A DNA stretch of 33,345 nucleotides from a virus: IMG/VR virus record IMGVR_UViG_3300020204_000208, positions 1 through 33,345 of that record. The stretch is one strand, 5' to 3'. The position numbers and the translations under genes were made by a program. The notes beneath the pieces are model-generated. The model did not search any database, was not told the DNA's origin, and worked only from the letters and a program-made list of their open reading frames with translations. This document shows, piece by piece, positions 1,579-32,639 of this stretch (position 1 is the first letter of the stretch; each line of letters starts with the position of its first letter).

Positions 1579-2105
1579 TCAAATCGACAATAGGTGATTC
1601 GACCACGGTCGCCTCGTGGTTGGATTCGCTTGAAAAATCACAGAAAGATGCTTTTGTGTTTTATGCAAAAAATGCAACTAGCGAAGTAGAAGCTTACATG
1701 TATGCCCGGTTTTTAAATCCGGGTTATGCAGGCAGCATCTCCGATCTAACCGCGTGGGTTCAAGAGAAATACCCCAAAGAGGATTTGCGTAAAGTTCTTC
1801 TTCGGGAGATTGATGATCTTCAAGTGGATATTAAAAACATCCGCGACATGACCCTAACCGGCATGTTGGATCACGCCACGGCGGCAACAAAAATTGCTGC
1901 TTTACAAAAAGAACTTCGGTCGCACATTATGACTGTGCGCCAGATCAGTGACGGTCTCGATCGACGCGGACTCCTCCTGGCCGGGGCTGACCGGTGTTTA
2001 CGGGAACTTGTAAACACGTTTGACGGTCAGCCTTCTTTCCAGGCGTTGCTCGAGGATTCGTCCCTGTTGGTGTGGTCGACCCTCGAGCGTGAAGAGAAGT
2101 CTTAA
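1575..2105 (+). CDS. Hypothetical helical protein, possible terminase small subunit
   Basis: Unrecognised 176-residue protein, mostly helical and acidic-basic mixed. It starts with GTG overlapping the previous stop. Residues 30-70 have a short helix-turn-helix-like look (EVEAYMYARFLNPGY, then SDLTAWVQEKYP) and 75-150 could form a coiled coil. It is the only uncharacterised gene of suitable size before the terminase large subunit, though two opposite-strand genes lie between, so a terminase small subunit is possible but unproven. Its TAA shares the TTAA at 2102-2105 with the stop of the convergent gene. Confidence 0.8.
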   Translation: MIKSTIGDSTTVASWLDSLEKSQKDAFVFYAKNATSEVEAYMYARFLNPGYAGSISDLTAWVQEKYPKEDLRKVLLREIDDLQVDIKNIRDMTLTGMLDHATAATKIAALQKELRSHIMTVRQISDGLDRRGLLLAGADRCLRELVNTFDGQPSFQALLEDSSLLVWSTLEREEKS

Positions 2106-3178
2106 GCGACTTCGGTCAGTTTGCTGGTGATTGATTTGAGCGGGCAACGGAAAATTCCGTTAAACGCATCGTTGACTCCGAGAGCCATCACCAGCTGCTG
2201 ATCTTCCACGTAAGCACCGAACGGCAGGATGCAAGCTGGTTGGAACGACACGGGATGTCCGTATTCGTTTGTCCAGCAAATCAGCCGATCTTCCAGAGAA
2301 CCTGAGAACAAAGGTTCTTTAATGACGTGCGTGATTTTGCTGAACTGCTTATCGAGCACGTAAGCGCTCAAGTGATACAGCAGATACATACTGCCGTCGT
2401 CCCTGCGCTCCATGTGTTTCCAGTGATAAAACACCAGATAACCCGAGCCGATGTCGATGGGGGGCAGTGAGTTGAAGGTTGCCGTTTCGCCAGTGATTTC
2501 GTTTAAAACGTCACTGTTAATTTCGATAGCGGGACCTTTTTCACACTCGATCTTGATCGGACGCGTCGAGTACAGGCAACGCAACTCGTCGTAATGCGTA
2601 AAGAAACACCAGTTTTTTTCGGTTTTACCCTTGACCCGGTTTTCTCCGATCGGAGGGATCGCAGCACTAACAGCTTCGAGCTGTTCGTTGATGTGACAAA
2701 CGATAACCTTGGGCTGATCGAAAAACTTAAGACCTCCCTTGTCGTACTTGCTGGCGTAAGAGGAGGCGACGAACTGTACATACATTTCGCCGTCCGGACC
2801 CTCGAATAGCCGTGGGTCTTCGTAGCTCAGGCGGTGTTTACCAGGACGAAGGAGTTTGGCGCCCAGAATGGTGCTGTCATCACCCAGCACACCGATGTAA
2901 ATATCGGTCGGGGTGTTGTTCATGTAGAAGTACTTCATGTCCCACCGGAATGCAAAAGCTTCCGGTTGTGACCGCCACGCGATATACGTGGTGCCCTTGT
3001 GACGCAGGATGCTGGGACTGAAGTTGGCGACCGAGTGTTCCGGGTTGCCGCGTGAGATTCGAGTGAAGCGACCGTTTAGTTTTTCCGCCTGTGTATATAC
3101 GTCAGATATATCCCCCATCTCGGTTTTAATCGGATGAACCACGTAGTTGTGAGCGTGGTAGTAGCGGAGGCTTTGCAT
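2102..3178 (-). CDS. GH130-like five-bladed beta-propeller glycosidase or phosphorylase
   Basis: A 358-residue protein with signatures of the GH130/GH43-type five-bladed propellers that cleave or phosphorolyse mannosides. Visible motifs are FSPSIL and AWRSQ (about 53-72), the acidic YEDPRLF (119-125, with D121 where the family keeps a catalytic or binding Asp), KTEKNWCFF (185-193), FYHWKH about residue 260, and a C-terminal LPFGAYV block. It is the second gene of a two-gene - strand unit: its ATG follows the stop of the GT4 gene by two bases. A glycoside-active enzyme paired with a glycosyltransferase suggests trimming or remodelling of surface glycans on host or virion. Substrate cannot be told; the family call is from motifs only. 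Confidence 0.75.
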   Translation of the reverse strand: MQSLRYYHAHNYVVHPIKTEMGDISDVYTQAEKLNGRFTRISRGNPEHSVANFSPSILRHKGTTYIAWRSQPEAFAFRWDMKYFYMNNTPTDIYIGVLGDDSTILGAKLLRPGKHRLSYEDPRLFEGPDGEMYVQFVASSYASKYDKGGLKFFDQPKVIVCHINEQLEAVSAAIPPIGENRVKGKTEKNWCFFTHYDELRCLYSTRPIKIECEKGPAIEINSDVLNEITGETATFNSLPPIDIGSGYLVFYHWKHMERRDDGSMYLLYHLSAYVLDKQFSKITHVIKEPLFSGSLEDRLICWTNEYGHPVSFQPACILPFGAYVEDQQLVMALGVNDAFNGIFRCPLKSITSKLTEVA

Positions 3179-3180
3179 GA

Positions 3181-4353
3181 TCAGTTCAACAGATCGGTAA
3201 CGGCTTGTGAGAAACCTGCGGCCACGGATTCCCAGCGATACTCAGGACGTTGAGTTACCGCGAAACAACAGTCGGCAACTTCCTTGTACAGATCTTTGTT
3301 GTTGTACAAGTCGGTGAGCAGACCCGCCGCGTGGTTGATGTCGATCAGACCACGTTCGACACCCAGGTCTTTGTCGATAATCCAAGTTGCCACGTCGATC
3401 AGCAACCCAGCTTCGTCCCAAATGTCGAGACAAGATGTATGACAAGGCACCACCTGCGGTTTGCGGCAGCTGGCGTGCTCGAAACTTACAAGTCCCCAAC
3501 CCTCACCGTTTGTGGTGTTTAGGCCAACGTCACAGGCGTTATAGATTTTATTAAGGAGCTCGTCCGGCGGCGCAGCGATGTAGTTGATGTCAGTCGAAGT
3601 CAGCACCAAACGGTTTGTTGGTTCGACACCCACCAGTTTCATCTCCCGCTCGAACAGGGGGATAACATCCCAGCCCATGTCTTTAGCCCCCATATGGAGG
3701 TAGAGCATGGTGTCGGGTTTGTCTTTAGCGAACTGGGCAAACGCTTTGATCGTTAAATCGATCTGTTTGCGGGGTTGATTTCGGTTGGCGTTAAGAACGA
3801 TAAATTTGTCGTTCGGGAGCCCTAAGGCTTTGCGGGCTTCTTCTCGTGGGATTGGGTTGAATTTGGATAAGTCAACCCCATGAGGGAGAACGCCCAGGCG
3901 ACTAGGAGAGATGCCATGTTCAAGAATTCTGTTTGCTTGGGGGATGGTAAATGTGATTGCAAGATCCCAGTGCGGGATGTTGCGCAGCATATCAACGGGA
4001 TACCGGTTGCTGTCGGTAGGGAAATATGCTAAAAATTTGAAATTATATTTTTGCTTAAGGAAGTGGATGCGTTCCCAGACCTGATTGAGGATCCAGATGT
4101 CATTTAAACAGATAAAAACGTCAGGTTTTTCTTTTTCAAAGATTTCGATCAGGCGCGGTAGCCCGAACCGATCTGCACAATGCAGATTTGATGCAGGATA
4201 AATTTTGTATGGATATTTATGCGGATCGCCGTTGTAGTTGATTCCAACGACGGCAACTTCATGATCTTTACAAAGATGCTCCAGAACACTGTGTGTTACA
4301 CGACCAAATCCAGTGTTCGAACAAGCGTCTCCGTACCAAAGAACTTTTGACAC
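3181..4353 (-). CDS. Glycosyltransferase family 4 (GT-B fold)
   Basis: A 390-residue GT4-type retaining glycosyltransferase. The N-terminal Rossmann half begins MSKVLWYGDA with a Gly-rich loop (NTGFGR, 13-18). The C-terminal half has LNANRNQPRKQIDLTIKAF (187-205), in which the Arg/Lys normally contact the donor phosphates, and GEGWGLVSFEHA (283-294), the E-x7-E nucleotide-sugar motif. No signal peptide or membrane segment is seen, so it should act in the cytoplasm of the infected cell. It is the first gene of a - strand pair with the GH130-like enzyme and diverges from the terminase gene with only 53 bases between starts. Donor and acceptor are unknown; decoration of lipopolysaccharide or virion proteins is plausible. 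Confidence 0.9.
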   Translation of the reverse strand: MSKVLWYGDACSNTGFGRVTHSVLEHLCKDHEVAVVGINYNGDPHKYPYKIYPASNLHCADRFGLPRLIEIFEKEKPDVFICLNDIWILNQVWERIHFLKQKYNFKFLAYFPTDSNRYPVDMLRNIPHWDLAITFTIPQANRILEHGISPSRLGVLPHGVDLSKFNPIPREEARKALGLPNDKFIVLNANRNQPRKQIDLTIKAFAQFAKDKPDTMLYLHMGAKDMGWDVIPLFEREMKLVGVEPTNRLVLTSTDINYIAAPPDELLNKIYNACDVGLNTTNGEGWGLVSFEHASCRKPQVVPCHTSCLDIWDEAGLLIDVATWIIDKDLGVERGLIDINHAAGLLTDLYNNKDLYKEVADCCFAVTQRPEYRWESVAAGFSQAVTDLLN

Positions 4354-8725: not shown

Positions 8726-9571
8726 ATGTTCTTCGATTGTTTTATGTATTTCGATGAGGCGGAGCTGCTTGAGCTCCGTATCGAAATGCTGAAGGATATT
8801 GTAGACGGTTTTATTGTCACAGACGCAGATCGTACGTTTAAAGGCGATAAAAAAGAGTTTACGTGCCTTGAGACAATTCGAAAACTTGGGCTCCCAGAAG
8901 AGAAGATTCAAGTCCTTCACGTAGAGCTGCCGTCTCCGGACGTTCACCCAAACCCGTGGGTACGTGAATATGCGCAGAGGGATGCGTTAGCCGTGGGTAT
9001 GAGGATGTGCCCTCCGGATTCAGTCTTTTTCTTTAGTGATGTCGATGAAATCCCGAAGCCTGAAGCTCTGCTGGAAGCATTAAAAATCGCTATAGAGAAT
9101 CCAGAACGTTGTGTTCGGCTGTCGATGCCGATGTTTTATGGTCGAGGTGATTTACGGGTGATTGATCCAAAAGGAGACCCCACCAAACCTCCGACGAACT
9201 GGACCTGCGGCACAGTTGTGTTGTTCGATCAGCTGAACGAGACCCCTTCTCAGATTCGGATGAAGGATAACGGTTTAGTTTTTGGCGATTGTGACGCGGG
9301 TTGGCATTTTTCGTGGATGGGCGATGCTGCGCGGATGAAACGCAAGTTGACTTCTTTTTCGCATTGTTACGATGTAATTCCTAACGCCCACGCTCCCGCA
9401 GATAGTCAAGAAATGCTTGATTTCTTGGATGCGTATAAAGCTAAAGCGGGAAGTACTGATCCTTTGGGGCGGTGTGATCACATTCTGCAGGAATATCCTC
9501 ATGAACTATTACCCGAAGAGTTGTTTAAACTGGAAAGAGTAAAACAGTACCTCCTTCCTGATTATGTCTGA
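8726..9571 (+). CDS. Glycosyltransferase family 17
   Basis: A 281-residue protein with clear GT17 features (the family of beta-1,4-mannosyl-glycoprotein N-acetylglucosaminyltransferases). It begins MFFDCFMYFDEAELLELRI, the typical family N-terminus, which also fixes the ATG at 8726. FVTDADRTFKG-type and PDSVFFFSDVDEIPKPEAL (about 96-114) carry the acidic SDVDEIP donor or metal motif, and GWHFSWMGD (about 191-199) is the conserved C-terminal block. It is soluble. Bacterial and phage GT17 members are thought to add sugars to surface glycans, though substrates are mostly unproven. It is the third glycosyltransferase within 6 kb of the terminase. Confidence 0.9.
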   Translation: MFFDCFMYFDEAELLELRIEMLKDIVDGFIVTDADRTFKGDKKEFTCLETIRKLGLPEEKIQVLHVELPSPDVHPNPWVREYAQRDALAVGMRMCPPDSVFFFSDVDEIPKPEALLEALKIAIENPERCVRLSMPMFYGRGDLRVIDPKGDPTKPPTNWTCGTVVLFDQLNETPSQIRMKDNGLVFGDCDAGWHFSWMGDAARMKRKLTSFSHCYDVIPNAHAPADSQEMLDFLDAYKAKAGSTDPLGRCDHILQEYPHELLPEELFKLERVKQYLLPDYV

Positions 9572-20280: not shown

Positions 20281-21813
20281 GTGGGCCGGACAAAGAGACC
20301 GGATGATTTTGGCTTCAAGTCTTTTAAAAAAGCAGAATCATTCAGAGCTCCTAAAACAATCAGAGGTTCGTATAATCCGGATGAGCTTTTAAAACCTCTC
20401 CCGTTTCACAGAAGATTTAGACCTCCGATTCTGACTAAAGAAACCAGCGCACAAAGCAATTATGACTACGCGTCGCTTTGGTGCCGTTGGCGGCGCGGTT
20501 ATGAATTAGCGATGTATTCGCAGCAGGCTTTTGATGGTCTGACTTATTCATTTAAGTATTACCCAGTCGGAACGCCCGGTGTCGGTGTTTTTCTTCCGGG
20601 TGCTTGCTTTATGTACCCAACCACACGATCCGATATGCGGATGTGGATGGTTGGTGTTCGCCCTCGTGATTCGTTTAACTTTTTGAGCTTTGGGTACGCA
20701 ATCGAGACTGTAACTCAGTACAACTCCACGACATACGCTGTCAAATTAAATACCAGATTTGGAGCTCCGATCTCTTTATTTACAGGTGAAGTTGTAAGTA
20801 ATCGATATAACCCCGATGGCTCAGAAAAAAAATATGGGTATAACAACTACACAATCACCGCAGTGGGATTTAACAACGTCCCTATCGCTCCCTCTTTTGC
20901 CCCCATTTTTAACACTTTATTTTTATCTGTATCTTCGGATAACAGCTGGTCTGTTGTTGATGCAAATACCCTTGCTGTTCCTGCAACGGGACCTCCAGCC
21001 GTGGGTGAATATTTAACTACGGAGATGAGGGCGCAGTGCACCTGCCCGGACTTCCTAAATCGAGAAGGATATAACTTATGGAACACTAACCTCAAGAATC
21101 GTTACCCAAATACAAGTATTTGGAACGTCAGTCCGGGTACATATGACGCGGGTGTCGATCAAGCTACGCGTTTGTTAAATACTCGGGATGATCCGGGTTA
21201 TGTCAGGGATTTTGGTTTTATTTATTTAAATCAAATTTATAACATCCCTACTTACGAAACCGAAAGCTATTCGGATCCAAATGTGTATTACTACCAACCA
21301 AAGTGGTGTAAACATATTTACGCAGCAATGTGGGATATGTATCTTCGTTACGGTCAGCAGGATGCGACCTCACAATGGATTTTGCATCAGCCAAATGATG
21401 AACCTTTAAACGAGTATTACAGAGAGCGATTTGATCGCGAGTTAGTTAAACAAGTTGAGTTCATGAAGCGCGAGAAAGATCTCGTGTGGTGGCAAAGATA
21501 CAGCCCAAAAATTACTGGGATGCCTGATCGGATGATGCAGCCAGACATGTATAACATGATGGCTAAGACTCTAAATTCAGGAGACACGGACTCATTAAAT
21601 GAGCTCGCTGCAACATCGTTCCAGATGTTTACGTTCAGCGAATATAATCCGTTTGAACCCTTAGGTCTAGAGAATCTTGAAACTTATGATGGGGGCACGT
21701 ATGCTTATGGCTCTCCCGTCGTTTCACCAGTAAACATCCTTGACGGTTCCACGTATGCCAACGGAACTCAAGGAACCATCACTTCATTTGCTTTAAACGG
21801 AGGTACGTATTAG
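20281..21813 (+). CDS. Large virion-type protein with SWIM-like zinc motif
   Basis: Unrecognised 510-residue protein, Tyr/Asn/Pro-rich. It starts with GTG two bases after the previous stop. It holds a CxC at 253-255 (AQCTCPDFLNREG) and a CxH at 343-345 (KWCKHIYAAMWDMYLR), the C-x-C...C-x-H order of SWIM zinc domains, including the CPDF and CKHIYA flanks. The 87-residue spacer is far longer than usual. SWIM domains bind DNA or proteins. The rest is beta-rich, with a Gly/Thr/Tyr-rich end carrying a GGTYAYG, DGSTYANG, NGGTY repeat. It overlaps the next gene as TAGTG. A virion protein that also binds zinc is the best reading. Confidence 0.8.
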   Translation: MGRTKRPDDFGFKSFKKAESFRAPKTIRGSYNPDELLKPLPFHRRFRPPILTKETSAQSNYDYASLWCRWRRGYELAMYSQQAFDGLTYSFKYYPVGTPGVGVFLPGACFMYPTTRSDMRMWMVGVRPRDSFNFLSFGYAIETVTQYNSTTYAVKLNTRFGAPISLFTGEVVSNRYNPDGSEKKYGYNNYTITAVGFNNVPIAPSFAPIFNTLFLSVSSDNSWSVVDANTLAVPATGPPAVGEYLTTEMRAQCTCPDFLNREGYNLWNTNLKNRYPNTSIWNVSPGTYDAGVDQATRLLNTRDDPGYVRDFGFIYLNQIYNIPTYETESYSDPNVYYYQPKWCKHIYAAMWDMYLRYGQQDATSQWILHQPNDEPLNEYYRERFDRELVKQVEFMKREKDLVWWQRYSPKITGMPDRMMQPDMYNMMAKTLNSGDTDSLNELAATSFQMFTFSEYNPFEPLGLENLETYDGGTYAYGSPVVSPVNILDGSTYANGTQGTITSFALNGGTY

Positions 21814-22481
21814 TGACATCCACACCTGTTGTCTTTCTTTTAAAACGTTCTGGCATCTCATCAGATCGTCCAAGCGGCACGATTTTACAAGGTGGCGAAC
21901 CAGCTATTTGCTTTGGCGCGGCTGATCCTGGACTTTACTTTGAGGATTCTGCTGGGTCTATCAGAAAAATCGGACCTTCTGCTTATAGCGCTACTGCACC
22001 CAACGCATCGCCGGCAGGCTTACCGGGTAACTCTATCGGGGAACTCTGGACCGATAGCAGCACAGCAAGTTACTACTTAAAGGTCTGGACTGGCTCAGCG
22101 TGGCAAAAGATCGGAGCTGCTTTTGCTGACACCGCTTCGTCTGCTACTTCAGCCAACACAGCCAATACCGCAACCTTTGCTTCCACAGCAGCTTTAGCAT
22201 CAGGAGCCGTTTTGGCTTCTGGAGCCATTAGCGCCAATAGTGCTTTGATTGCGTCCGGAGCTATTTTGGCTTCAGGCGCCATTCTGGCCTCAGGTGCTCT
22301 TGTGGCTTCTGGAGCGATCTTGGCCTCTGGAGCAATTCAGACCTGTTCGATCGTACTTAGCGGTTTGCCCGCCACCGCCTCGAGCGTCTCAGGCACTCTG
22401 GTGTATCAGGTGCAGAGTTCAGGTACGACGCCCAGCGGTCTGTTTGTCCGAGTGTTAGACGGCTGGGCGTATACCAATTAA
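21813..22481 (+). CDS. Tail-fibre-like protein with hexapeptide repeats
   Basis: A 222-residue fibre-type protein. Residues 1-55 and 65-100 have a domain seen in phage fibres (GNSIGELWTDSSTASYYLKVW, ending W-K). Residues 129-176 are eight ASGAxL-type hexapeptides, encoded by eight 18-base repeats at 22197-22340, which could form a trimeric stalk or left-handed beta-helix. The end, VLSGLPATASSVSGTLVYQV, is a C-terminal fibre block. It starts GTG (TAGTG overlap). Its TAA shares TTAA with the stop of the convergent Dps gene. Probable host receptor contact. Confidence 0.75.
   Translation: MTSTPVVFLLKRSGISSDRPSGTILQGGEPAICFGAADPGLYFEDSAGSIRKIGPSAYSATAPNASPAGLPGNSIGELWTDSSTASYYLKVWTGSAWQKIGAAFADTASSATSANTANTATFASTAALASGAVLASGAISANSALIASGAILASGAILASGALVASGAILASGAIQTCSIVLSGLPATASSVSGTLVYQVQSSGTTPSGLFVRVLDGWAYTN
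22197..22340 (+). repeat. Eight 18-base coding repeats
   Basis: Eight tandem 18-base units inside the fibre gene, each encoding a variant of ASGAxL. Units differ at third codon positions more than at first and second, so selection acts on the hexapeptide. Not a CRISPR: there are no spacers and the frame is never broken. Confidence 0.85.
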
Positions 22482-23014
22482 CCGCGCAGAGTAGCTTTGA
22501 TAAACCACGCAGCTTTGAAGGACAAGGCAACGTAGTCAGCCAAATAATTTTCGATATCGGGGGCGTCCACAGCTTTTGCTGTTTTTTGAATATCTTTTGC
22601 CACCATGCCGCCTTTATCTAAATTGCTCAGATAAGTGGAAAGCATATCCCGCATCTCATATGATTTGACGTTCTTAAAGTTTTTGCAGGCTTGCTGAAGC
22701 CCACGGGCGCACATAGGCATAAAGAAGTCTAGAGTGCGAACAAATTCGGATAAAGTGTCGAATTGTTTGATGTGGAGTTTGTACTGGCCCTTAAGGAACT
22801 CGTGGATCGGAAGAAAAATCGGACCCTCAACGTTTAGGTGAATTAGATGTGACTGGGTGTAAAGCTGATTTGTATACGAAGCAAGACCCACTAACTGAGA
22901 AGAAAGCTCCTCAACAGTGGGTCCAGCTGGTTGCTCGGGCTCTTGCATGATGATTGTTGCAACCCGCTCAACCGTGGGCGCAGCTTGATCAGCAAAAGAG
23001 TCCGAGTAAGTCAT
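22478..23014 (-). CDS. Dps-like ferritin (DNA protection during starvation)
   Basis: A 178-residue protein of the Dps family: 12-subunit cages that oxidise iron with peroxide and shield DNA. The ferroxidase region HLNVEGPIFLPIHEFLKGQY then HIKQFDTLSEFVRT aligns closely with E. coli Dps in spacing: H59, H71, D86 and E90 stand where E. coli has H51, H63, D78 and E82. K75 replaces D67. A long helix and AAWFIKATLRG end match the family C-terminus. Residues 1-33 are an extra disordered tail. It is the second gene of a - strand pair with an HTH gene (1-base gap), and overlaps the convergent fibre gene by 4 bases. Family call firm; enzyme activity uncertain because of K75. Confidence 0.85.
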   Translation of the reverse strand: MTYSDSFADQAAPTVERVATIIMQEPEQPAGPTVEELSSQLVGLASYTNQLYTQSHLIHLNVEGPIFLPIHEFLKGQYKLHIKQFDTLSEFVRTLDFFMPMCARGLQQACKNFKNVKSYEMRDMLSTYLSNLDKGGMVAKDIQKTAKAVDAPDIENYLADYVALSFKAAWFIKATLRG

Positions 23015-23015
23015 C

Positions 23016-23285
23016 TTAAAGGGAGCAAACAGCAGTGCTCAACGAGGAAACTTCTTCTTCCACTTTAACCAAGGATGAACTACGAAGATAATCTTCGAGT
23101 GCACTTCGATTAACGCGATAAAGAGACTTTGCGCCGTTGGGCTGCAGATTCACGTATACAGACTTAGGCCAACCGCCCGGCTGATTCGCTTCAGACAAAG
23201 CAATACGCTTCCGCACAAAACCAGAGCTGCAATTAAGGAGTTCAGCCGTTTCCGCGATAGTAAGAAGAGTCTTACTTTCCGACAT
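23016..23285 (-). CDS. Helix-turn-helix regulator (excisionase or AlpA-like fold)
   Basis: An 89-residue protein with LLTIAETAELLNCSSGFVRK (7-26), a MerR/excisionase-type helix-turn-helix, followed by a wing-like VYVNLQPNGAKSLYRVNRSAL and a charged tail. It should bind DNA. It heads a unit with the Dps gene. A palindrome at 23330-23348, next to a -10-like box on the same strand, could be its own operator. Nothing links it to an integrase in this window. Confidence 0.8.
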   Translation of the reverse strand: MSESKTLLTIAETAELLNCSSGFVRKRIALSEANQPGGWPKSVYVNLQPNGAKSLYRVNRSALEDYLRSSSLVKVEEEVSSLSTAVCSL

Positions 23286-23329
23286 TGTATATGCGAGAAA
23301 AAAGTTACGGCTTTATATTACATACGTTT

Positions 23330-23348
23330 CTTGTGTGCGCAACACAAG
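23330..23348 (-). promoter_or_regulatory. Palindromic operator candidate upstream of HTH gene
   Basis: CTTGTGT (23330-23336) and ACACAAG (23342-23348) are perfect 7-bp arms with a 5-base centre. On the - strand they lie 45-63 bases before the HTH start and cover a TTGTGT -35-like region; TGTAATATAAAG follows as a -10. This is a natural place for self-repression by the HTH protein. Confidence 0.5.
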
Positions 23349-23413
23349 CAGCCTCTGCGTCACAACTTCTTTATTATTCAGCTGCTACTATTAAATTTAG
23401 ACACGGATTTAAC

Positions 23414-31413: not shown

Positions 31414-31899
31414 ATGTCTTTTGCCACATTTTTGGCGGGGGAGACTTTAAGCCCCGGAGATCCAGTCGCTTTGACGAGCGCTGGTGTCGTTTATAGGTGC
31501 TGCGCTGTCGATCCGAACACCGATACACTTGTCGGCGTTTGTTTAGAAAGCGGCTCGGTCAACGGCCAAGTCCGCGTGGGGCTTGATAACGCCGGCAGTG
31601 TATTTTCTAATTTGACTGTTGGTGCTCAATATTATGTCGGGTTAACGTCGGGTACATTAATTAGTGGATACGATAATTTTTTAAATGCACTAGAAAATAC
31701 TGGTTATGCTAGTGCGACTTTAAATTATGTAGGTCGTGCGATTACAACCAGTCGGATTTCAGTTGAGCGGAGTTTTCCTTTAATAATTGTCAATCCTGCT
31801 AGTTCTTCGGTTTTATTAGAATCAAGTGTAAGCGCAGTAAGCCCGTTTTTTATTCTTCAGGAAGACGGGTCTAAAATATTGCAAGAGGATGCTAGCTAA
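31414..31899 (+). CDS. Fibre-associated beta-rich protein
   Basis: A 161-residue protein with a recurring phage fibre-type domain: LAGETLSPGDPVALTSAGVV, LVGVCLESGSVNGQVRVGLD, LTVGAQYYVGLTSGTLISGY and VGRAITTSRISV. The end repeats a short FILQEDGSKILQEDAS. It is probably a tail-fibre partner or surface protein. It starts ATG and overlaps the next ATG as TAATG (31897-31901). Confidence 0.75.
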   Translation: MSFATFLAGETLSPGDPVALTSAGVVYRCCAVDPNTDTLVGVCLESGSVNGQVRVGLDNAGSVFSNLTVGAQYYVGLTSGTLISGYDNFLNALENTGYASATLNYVGRAITTSRISVERSFPLIIVNPASSSVLLESSVSAVSPFFILQEDGSKILQEDAS

Positions 31900-32639
31900 T
31901 GGCTAACGAAAAAATTTCTCAGTTTAGTCCGCTGACTACATTAGCTAGTGGTGATTATCTGCCGATTGTTGATATTTCGGAGCCTTCTACTGCAGATCAA
32001 AACAAACGTGTTGGTGTAGATGTTCTTGATGGACGTTATTTTGCGGCGGCTAGTGGTGCAGCCTCTTTAACTCTTGCTGTATCCGCTCAAGCTTCCGGTA
32101 ATGCAGCTTTATCGAGTGCCTCAACTGCGCTTGCTTCGGGTAATGCAGGTATTTCTGTTGGTTTAACGGCACTTGCTTCGGGTAATGCAGCTCTTACTAA
32201 TGCCGCTACCGCACAGGCTTCTGGTAACGCAGCCTTAACTTCAGTCGCAGGTAAGTACGATAAGACTGGCGGCCCGATTTCTGGTCCCGTTGTTGTTCAG
32301 TCTCAATCCTTCGGTGAAACTGGCACGGTCATATCTTCTGGTGTTTGTACTCTTAATTTCGGCGCTCGTAATAACTTTGAAGTAATCCTGACGAACAACT
32401 CGACTTTTGCTTCCCCGGTTAATGCCAGTGGCGGTCAGTGCGGTTCGATTACGATTCGTCAGGACGGAACCGGTAGTCGTTTGATCACCTACAGCGGTTC
32501 CTGGAGTTTTATCTCAAATACCGCGCCGACACTCACGACTTCTGCGAGCGGCGTGGATATTTTGACGTACTATTGCGTTAACCCAAATCGCGTCAGCGCG
32601 ATTCTGTCTGCTAACTACGGTTCTGGAACCGTCTCATGA
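31899..32639 (+). CDS. Tail-fibre protein with 14-residue repeats
   Basis: A 246-residue fibre protein. N-terminus MANEKISQFSPLTTLASGDY with YLPIVDIS is typical of fibre attachment parts. Residues 63-118 are four 14-residue repeats, AxASGNAALxxAxT, coded by four 42-base units; they should form a trimeric coiled or beta stalk. KYDKTGGPISGPVVV follows, then a C-terminal beta domain with NNFEVILTNNSTFASPVNAS and GSITIRQDGTGSRLITYSGS. Host recognition is likely. Its TGA overlaps the next ATG as ATGA. Confidence 0.85.
   Translation: MANEKISQFSPLTTLASGDYLPIVDISEPSTADQNKRVGVDVLDGRYFAAASGAASLTLAVSAQASGNAALSSASTALASGNAGISVGLTALASGNAALTNAATAQASGNAALTSVAGKYDKTGGPISGPVVVQSQSFGETGTVISSGVCTLNFGARNNFEVILTNNSTFASPVNASGGQCGSITIRQDGTGSRLITYSGSWSFISNTAPTLTTSASGVDILTYYCVNPNRVSAILSANYGSGTVS
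32085..32252 (+). repeat. Four 42-base coding repeats
   Basis: Four tandem 42-base units inside the fibre gene, each coding a 14-residue AxASGNAxL unit. GCTTCNGGTAATGCAG is the most constant part. They share the ASG motif with the 18-base repeats of the 21813 gene. Confidence 0.85.

Follow-up and report, generated by a model that had tools for sequence, protein, structure and literature searches.

The window analysed here is a viral DNA stretch of 33,345 nucleotides (IMG/VR record IMGVR_UViG_3300020204_000208), in which a dps gene on the minus strand (22478..23014) encodes a Dps-family mini-ferritin of 178 amino acids. A single base separates it from an upstream gene on the same strand (23016..23285), whose 89-aa product is an HTH protein, probably of the MerR/excisionase type; we annotate it as a putative regulator of the dps cassette based on its matches to the HTH_17 and TIGR01764 models and its linkage to dps. 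Both open reading frames occupy, on the minus strand, the coordinates given in the first-pass annotation, and the phage Dps proposed there was recovered by Pfam Ferritin (E 1.4e-8, exceeding the gathering score) and by PHROG 3636 (9e-24). Beyond the HTH gene lies a divergent intergenic region (23286..23412, no strand assigned), a likely promoter/operator of the HTH-dps cassette that we treat as a lead only, on the basis of its sequence and an upstream alignment of 26 relatives. On the other side, a convergent gene on the plus strand (21813..22481), identified as minor-tail-like by PHROG 356 and synteny, overlaps the 3' end of dps by 4 bases.

Judged by its gene sequences, the window represents part of an S-EIV1-like cyanophage genome, since its terminase (TerL) and its portal-like protein are 47.7% and 45% identical, respectively, to their counterparts in Synechococcus phage S-EIVl, the only phage record matched by the portal-like protein. 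The cyanophage context assumed for this DNA is thereby upheld. The phage Dps proteins of this lineage group in a single clade, apart from the cellular Dps sampled and on a stem so long that the exact root is unsafe. The gene is long established in these phages. A recent transfer from a host was considered and rejected, as no close copy exists in the 386 cyanobacterial genomes sampled (best E 2.7e-13) and the lineage is a single deep clade. A genome scan with phage-only motifs gave no match.

A monomeric AlphaFold model of the window Dps, built from 34 relatives, has a mean pLDDT of 84.6, and 120 of its residues reach at least 90. Confidence is very low for residues 1-26, and the remainder forms the Dps bundle with its BC helix. 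The helices of the model (34-61, 67-94, 103-109, 121-148, and 152-177) correspond to a four-helix bundle plus a short BC helix, so that the protein consists of an acidic N-terminal tail (residues 1-33) and the bundle (residues 34-177). Solved Dps structures superimpose on the model over residues ~30-178 with Z scores of 20-22 (best 22) and rmsd values mostly of 1.4-2.5, and the matches of the protein among solved structures are Dps-type chains. The comparison with solved Dps thus identifies the window protein as a Dps-fold protein. Both dps and the HTH gene are under strong purifying selection, with dN/dS of ~0.03-0.05 for dps pairs, where dS is near saturation in most.

The ferroxidase motif from H59 to E90 (22745..22840, minus strand) was defined by alignments. 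The inter-subunit ferroxidase ligands His51, His63, Asp78, and Glu82 of Dps correspond to H59, H71, D86, and E90 of the window protein, and the Dps spacing claimed for these four residues holds, because they align to the Dps motif without gaps, together with K75 at the position of E. coli D67. Viral contigs were searched twice, and the overlapping sets of 56 and 80 relatives gave 84 distinct full-length Dps proteins of the S-EIV1-like lineage. In all 84, nine residues are invariant (H56, H59, H71, H81, D86, E90, R93, D96, and C102), whereas position 75 holds Lys in 72 proteins and Gly in the other 12, never Asp or Glu. The reported change from Asp to Lys is real, given that K75 falls on the Asp or Glu of solved Dps proteins (Glu in 8ff9 and 3kwo, Asp in 1uvh). 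Neither Lys nor Gly occurs there in the 80 nearest cellular Dps (68 Glu, 11 Met, and 1 Gln), a motif-drawn and similarity-ranked sample that is no census. An acidic residue at position 67 is nevertheless not strict in the Dps family, as shown by Met or Gln in 12 of these 80 cellular relatives and by Asn in NpDps4.

The residue that follows the first ferroxidase His, Trp52 in canonical numbering, is Trp in all 80 cellular relatives; it is L60 in the window protein, and Leu (78) or Phe (6) among the 84 phage proteins. Positions H81, D96, and C102, fixed in the phage proteins, are mostly occupied by other residues in the cellular ones. With Trp52 gone and these new invariant residues present, the chemistry of the lineage may differ from that of canonical Dps. 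The neighbouring residue offers no constant substitute for the carboxylate, since position 76 is Asp or Glu in many relatives, but Gly in the window protein and Gly, Lys, Thr, or Asn in others.

The first-pass annotation had treated D67 as a residue of the iron site; in canonical Dps, however, residue 67 contacts the metal through a water molecule, in the second shell, and is no direct ligand (PMC6675082, PMC10002758). In Pseudomonas aeruginosa PA0962, Fe1 is bound by H37, D64, and E68, and the only protein ligands of Fe2 are H49 and E68 (PMC10002758); these residues correspond to H59, D86, and E90 and to H71 of the window protein. Most Dps structures contain a single iron (PMC7762939), at the site for which the window protein retains every ligand. 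NpDps4, with a non-coordinating Asn67, still oxidises iron (PMC6675082). Because the direct ligands are invariant and D67 is dispensable in the active NpDps4, K75 is no argument for a loss of iron chemistry, and the suggestion that it marks such a loss found no support. With the direct ligands kept but the water-bridging Asp67 exchanged for Lys or Gly, site A should be intact and site B weaker. The Lys could fill site B by forming a salt bridge to E90.

Comparison with known proteins places the window Dps among several related systems. In Synechococcus phage S-EIVl, the protein annotated as 'DNA-binding ferritin-like protein' (AHV82153) belongs to the same lineage; it is 42% identical to the window Dps over 93% and shares its four ligands, H81, and C102. 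It has Gly where the window protein has Lys and, unlike the latter, carries a basic KPRSPAKSK tail, occupies another genome position, and lacks an HTH partner. The S-EIVl gene that follows dps (L057:20522-21988) is annotated as sulfate adenylyltransferase and matched no Pfam family. PA0962 (8ff9), the top solved match both in the single-sequence search and in Foldseek, has identical direct ligands and likewise no basic N-terminal tail, but differs in having Glu at the D67 position and Trp at position 52. Nostoc NpDps4 and Thermosynechococcus DpsA, which have a His-type ferroxidase centre, are active as ferroxidases although their residue 67 is Asn and provides no carboxylate ligand. They have His in place of Asp78 and an additional His164, where the window Dps has D86 and F171, and so the latter does not belong to the His type. 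More generally, the cyanobacterial DpsA-type proteins combine His at 78 with Asn, Gln, or Lys at position 67.

Gly at the D67 position characterises a second lineage of cyanophage Dps, made up of that of cyanomyophage S-SRM01 (L285:1513-1944) and its environmental relatives (L296-L375). Gly was found in all 39 distinct proteins of this lineage, which keep the other four ligands and, unlike the window Dps, have no tail. The S-EIV1 and S-SRM01 lineages each form a separate, well-supported clade. Parallel loss of the carboxylate is a lead only, as the topology test did not reject one shared origin (p-AU 0.42). Among phage-encoded Dps proteins from outside the cyanophages (Lactobacillus phages, Grimontviridae, and Streptomyces phages), position 67 is Asp or Glu in all 10 sequences compared. 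Gratiaviridae also encode a Dps, known to us from the literature and additional to these ten.

Within the S-EIV1-like lineage, the dps genes were divided into two classes. Class I, to which the window gene belongs, is a grouping by features: an acidic tail, a location in the virion/lysis region, and an HTH gene that is always present. The tails of this class have net charges of -3 to -7, with 0-3 Lys/Arg and 4-9 Asp/Glu. All class I genes inspected occupy the same site, between the minor-tail-like gene, their constant syntenic neighbour, and the lysis genes, on the strand opposite to both. Class II includes 57 distinct proteins, among them that of S-EIV1, and forms one clade (support 97). Its tails are mostly basic (median net charge +2), in most relatives in the form KPKAPxKSK, with three exceptions (L134, L101, and L051); no HTH homologue was present in the flanks examined, and the genes whose surroundings were read lie elsewhere in the genome than the class I site. 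One of the exceptions, L134:5875-6492, lacks the HTH gene and has a strongly acidic tail of 60 residues, and acidic tails are therefore not exclusive to HTH-linked copies. Each of the 32 phage records checked, up to 87 kb in length, contains exactly one dps, which rules out two copies per phage; class I and class II thus look like alternatives.

In the window Dps, residues 1-33 contain one Arg, no Lys, and five Asp/Glu, corresponding to a pI of 4.05 and a charge of -4.5 at pH 7. The extra N-terminal tail of about 33 residues described earlier does exceed the shortest Dps proteins, yet the position of H59 against H51 of E. coli amounts to only 8 residues more. The protein has no C-terminal tail, and hence neither of the basic tails of the E. 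coli-type DNA-binding Dps. The basic DNA-gripping tail has been lost in this branch of the lineage.

The second search included 38 class I loci in which the contig reaches upstream, and every one corroborated the pairing of dps with an HTH gene that adjoins it and is co-directional with it (the contig of L084 starts inside dps). The two genes are mostly separated by 1 to 10 bases, most often by one, or overlap by 4 bases. From this tight spacing, conserved in all records, we infer that the two genes are probably co-transcribed, and the HTH protein is likely to control the cassette. Family matches fall just below the model cut-offs, with a score of 26.9 against 27 for HTH_17 (E 5.9e-6) and 26.3 against 28.8 for TIGR01764 'excise' (E 7e-6). 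Homologues numbered zero in 50,697 phage records and zero in 292 cyanobacterial genomes, the latter a weak absence from a search that had no positive control. The intergenic region contains a near-palindrome, TTGTGT-TGCGC-ACACAA, that is only partly conserved among the 26 aligned relatives. Synonymous codon conservation in the HTH gene (0.589) is no higher than in dps (0.591), giving no sign of additional regulatory constraint inside the gene.

Taken together, these data are best explained by a cyanophage mini-ferritin that detoxifies Fe(II) and H2O2 and is made during infection from the HTH-dps cassette under the linked regulator, a reading to which we assign a probability of about 0.6. The protein, predicted to assemble from 12 subunits, would capture Fe(II) at site A, the one of high affinity (H59, D86, and E90), and oxidise it with H2O2, while site B (H71 and E90) would be weakened by Lys or Gly in place of the water-bridging Asp67. 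Both Fenton reagents would in this way be removed from a cell that is still photosynthesising in the light. The acidic tail would make the protein a soluble, Dpr-like detoxifier that does not coat DNA, and the HTH protein would control the cassette. PA0962 oxidises Fe(II) with H2O2 (PMC10002758), and host tolerance of peroxide and iron has been proposed as the role of phage Dps (PMC6669764, PMC8008677). Since the host is light-driven, such a role is plausible here, as is the protection from peroxide envisaged in the first-pass annotation.

The same annotation had offered DNA condensation as the other possible function. Dps proteins usually bind DNA through basic tails, and the Dps-like Dpr proteins, which do not bind it, act as antioxidants (PMC7762939); with an acidic N-terminal tail and no C-terminal one, the window Dps is unlikely to condense DNA. 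An iron-inactive Dps that coats phage or host DNA would have a precedent in Dgeo_0257, which binds DNA and lacks ferroxidase activity (PMC9820295), and it would suit the PHROG label of the family ('DNA binding protein'), the basic tails of most class II relatives, and a K75 that could block site B. We nevertheless consider it very improbable, as the invariance of all direct iron ligands would be unexpected had metal binding been dropped, and class I tails are acidic. PA0962 acts on DNA in vitro without a basic tail (PMC10002758), and by analogy the window Dps may carry positive surface patches. A scavenger or store that would provide phage metalloproteins or tails with iron freed by the breakdown of host photosystems seems quite unlikely: Dps cages do store iron and class I dps lies in the virion/lysis region, but no other iron-handling genes were identified in the window, and storage likewise needs a ferroxidase, so that this explanation overlaps with that of a detoxifier. 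The position among virion genes could also point to a Dps cage packaged in the virion, where it would guard encapsidated or entering DNA. The opposite orientation of dps, its own HTH gene, and the location of class II copies outside the virion module make this hardly probable at all.

For the HTH protein, the alternative is an independent excisionase-like or host-takeover gene that shares the cassette and does not regulate dps. Excisionase-type models are its best family matches and no operator is conserved across all the relatives aligned, so this alternative retains some weight. We regard it as somewhat unlikely, because the gene is never apart from dps in the loci examined and its MerR/Xis-type fold is a general one, found in many regulators.

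Phage Dps proteins as such are already known, with 183 annotated phage records matching a cellular Dps and the S-EIV1 copy annotated. We found no paper on Dps in cyanophages in the open literature, a coverage that does not extend to the original S-EIV1 paper. As far as we have checked, the lineage-wide Lys/Gly with loss of Trp52, the HTH-linked acidic-tailed class, and the fixed genome place of that class are new. If the protein works as proposed, a widespread cyanophage lineage carries its own iron/peroxide detoxifier and regulator, which would suggest that reactive oxygen limits phage production in the light. We advance only tentatively, as an unlikely extension, that cyanophage Dps lineages have permanently lost the site-B carboxylate (Lys/Gly in S-EIV1, Gly in S-SRM01) in parallel with the cyanobacterial DpsA-type. 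On this view, the loss would adjust the centre to another oxidant or to a mononuclear mechanism, as would suit oxygenic phototrophs, and the class I protein would have been detached from DNA and brought under a dedicated regulator of the phage. With Lys or Gly fixed at position 67 in two cyanophage lineages, natural variants are at hand for a direct test of what this carboxylate does in Dps.

Elsewhere in the window (2102-4353 and 8726-9571), genes resembling glycosyltransferases of families 4/1 and 17 lie beside the terminase and portal genes, as does one whose product is weakly glycoside-hydrolase-130-like. The tail-like proteins encoded at 21813-22481 and 31899-32639 contain runs of ASGA / ASGNAAL repeats.
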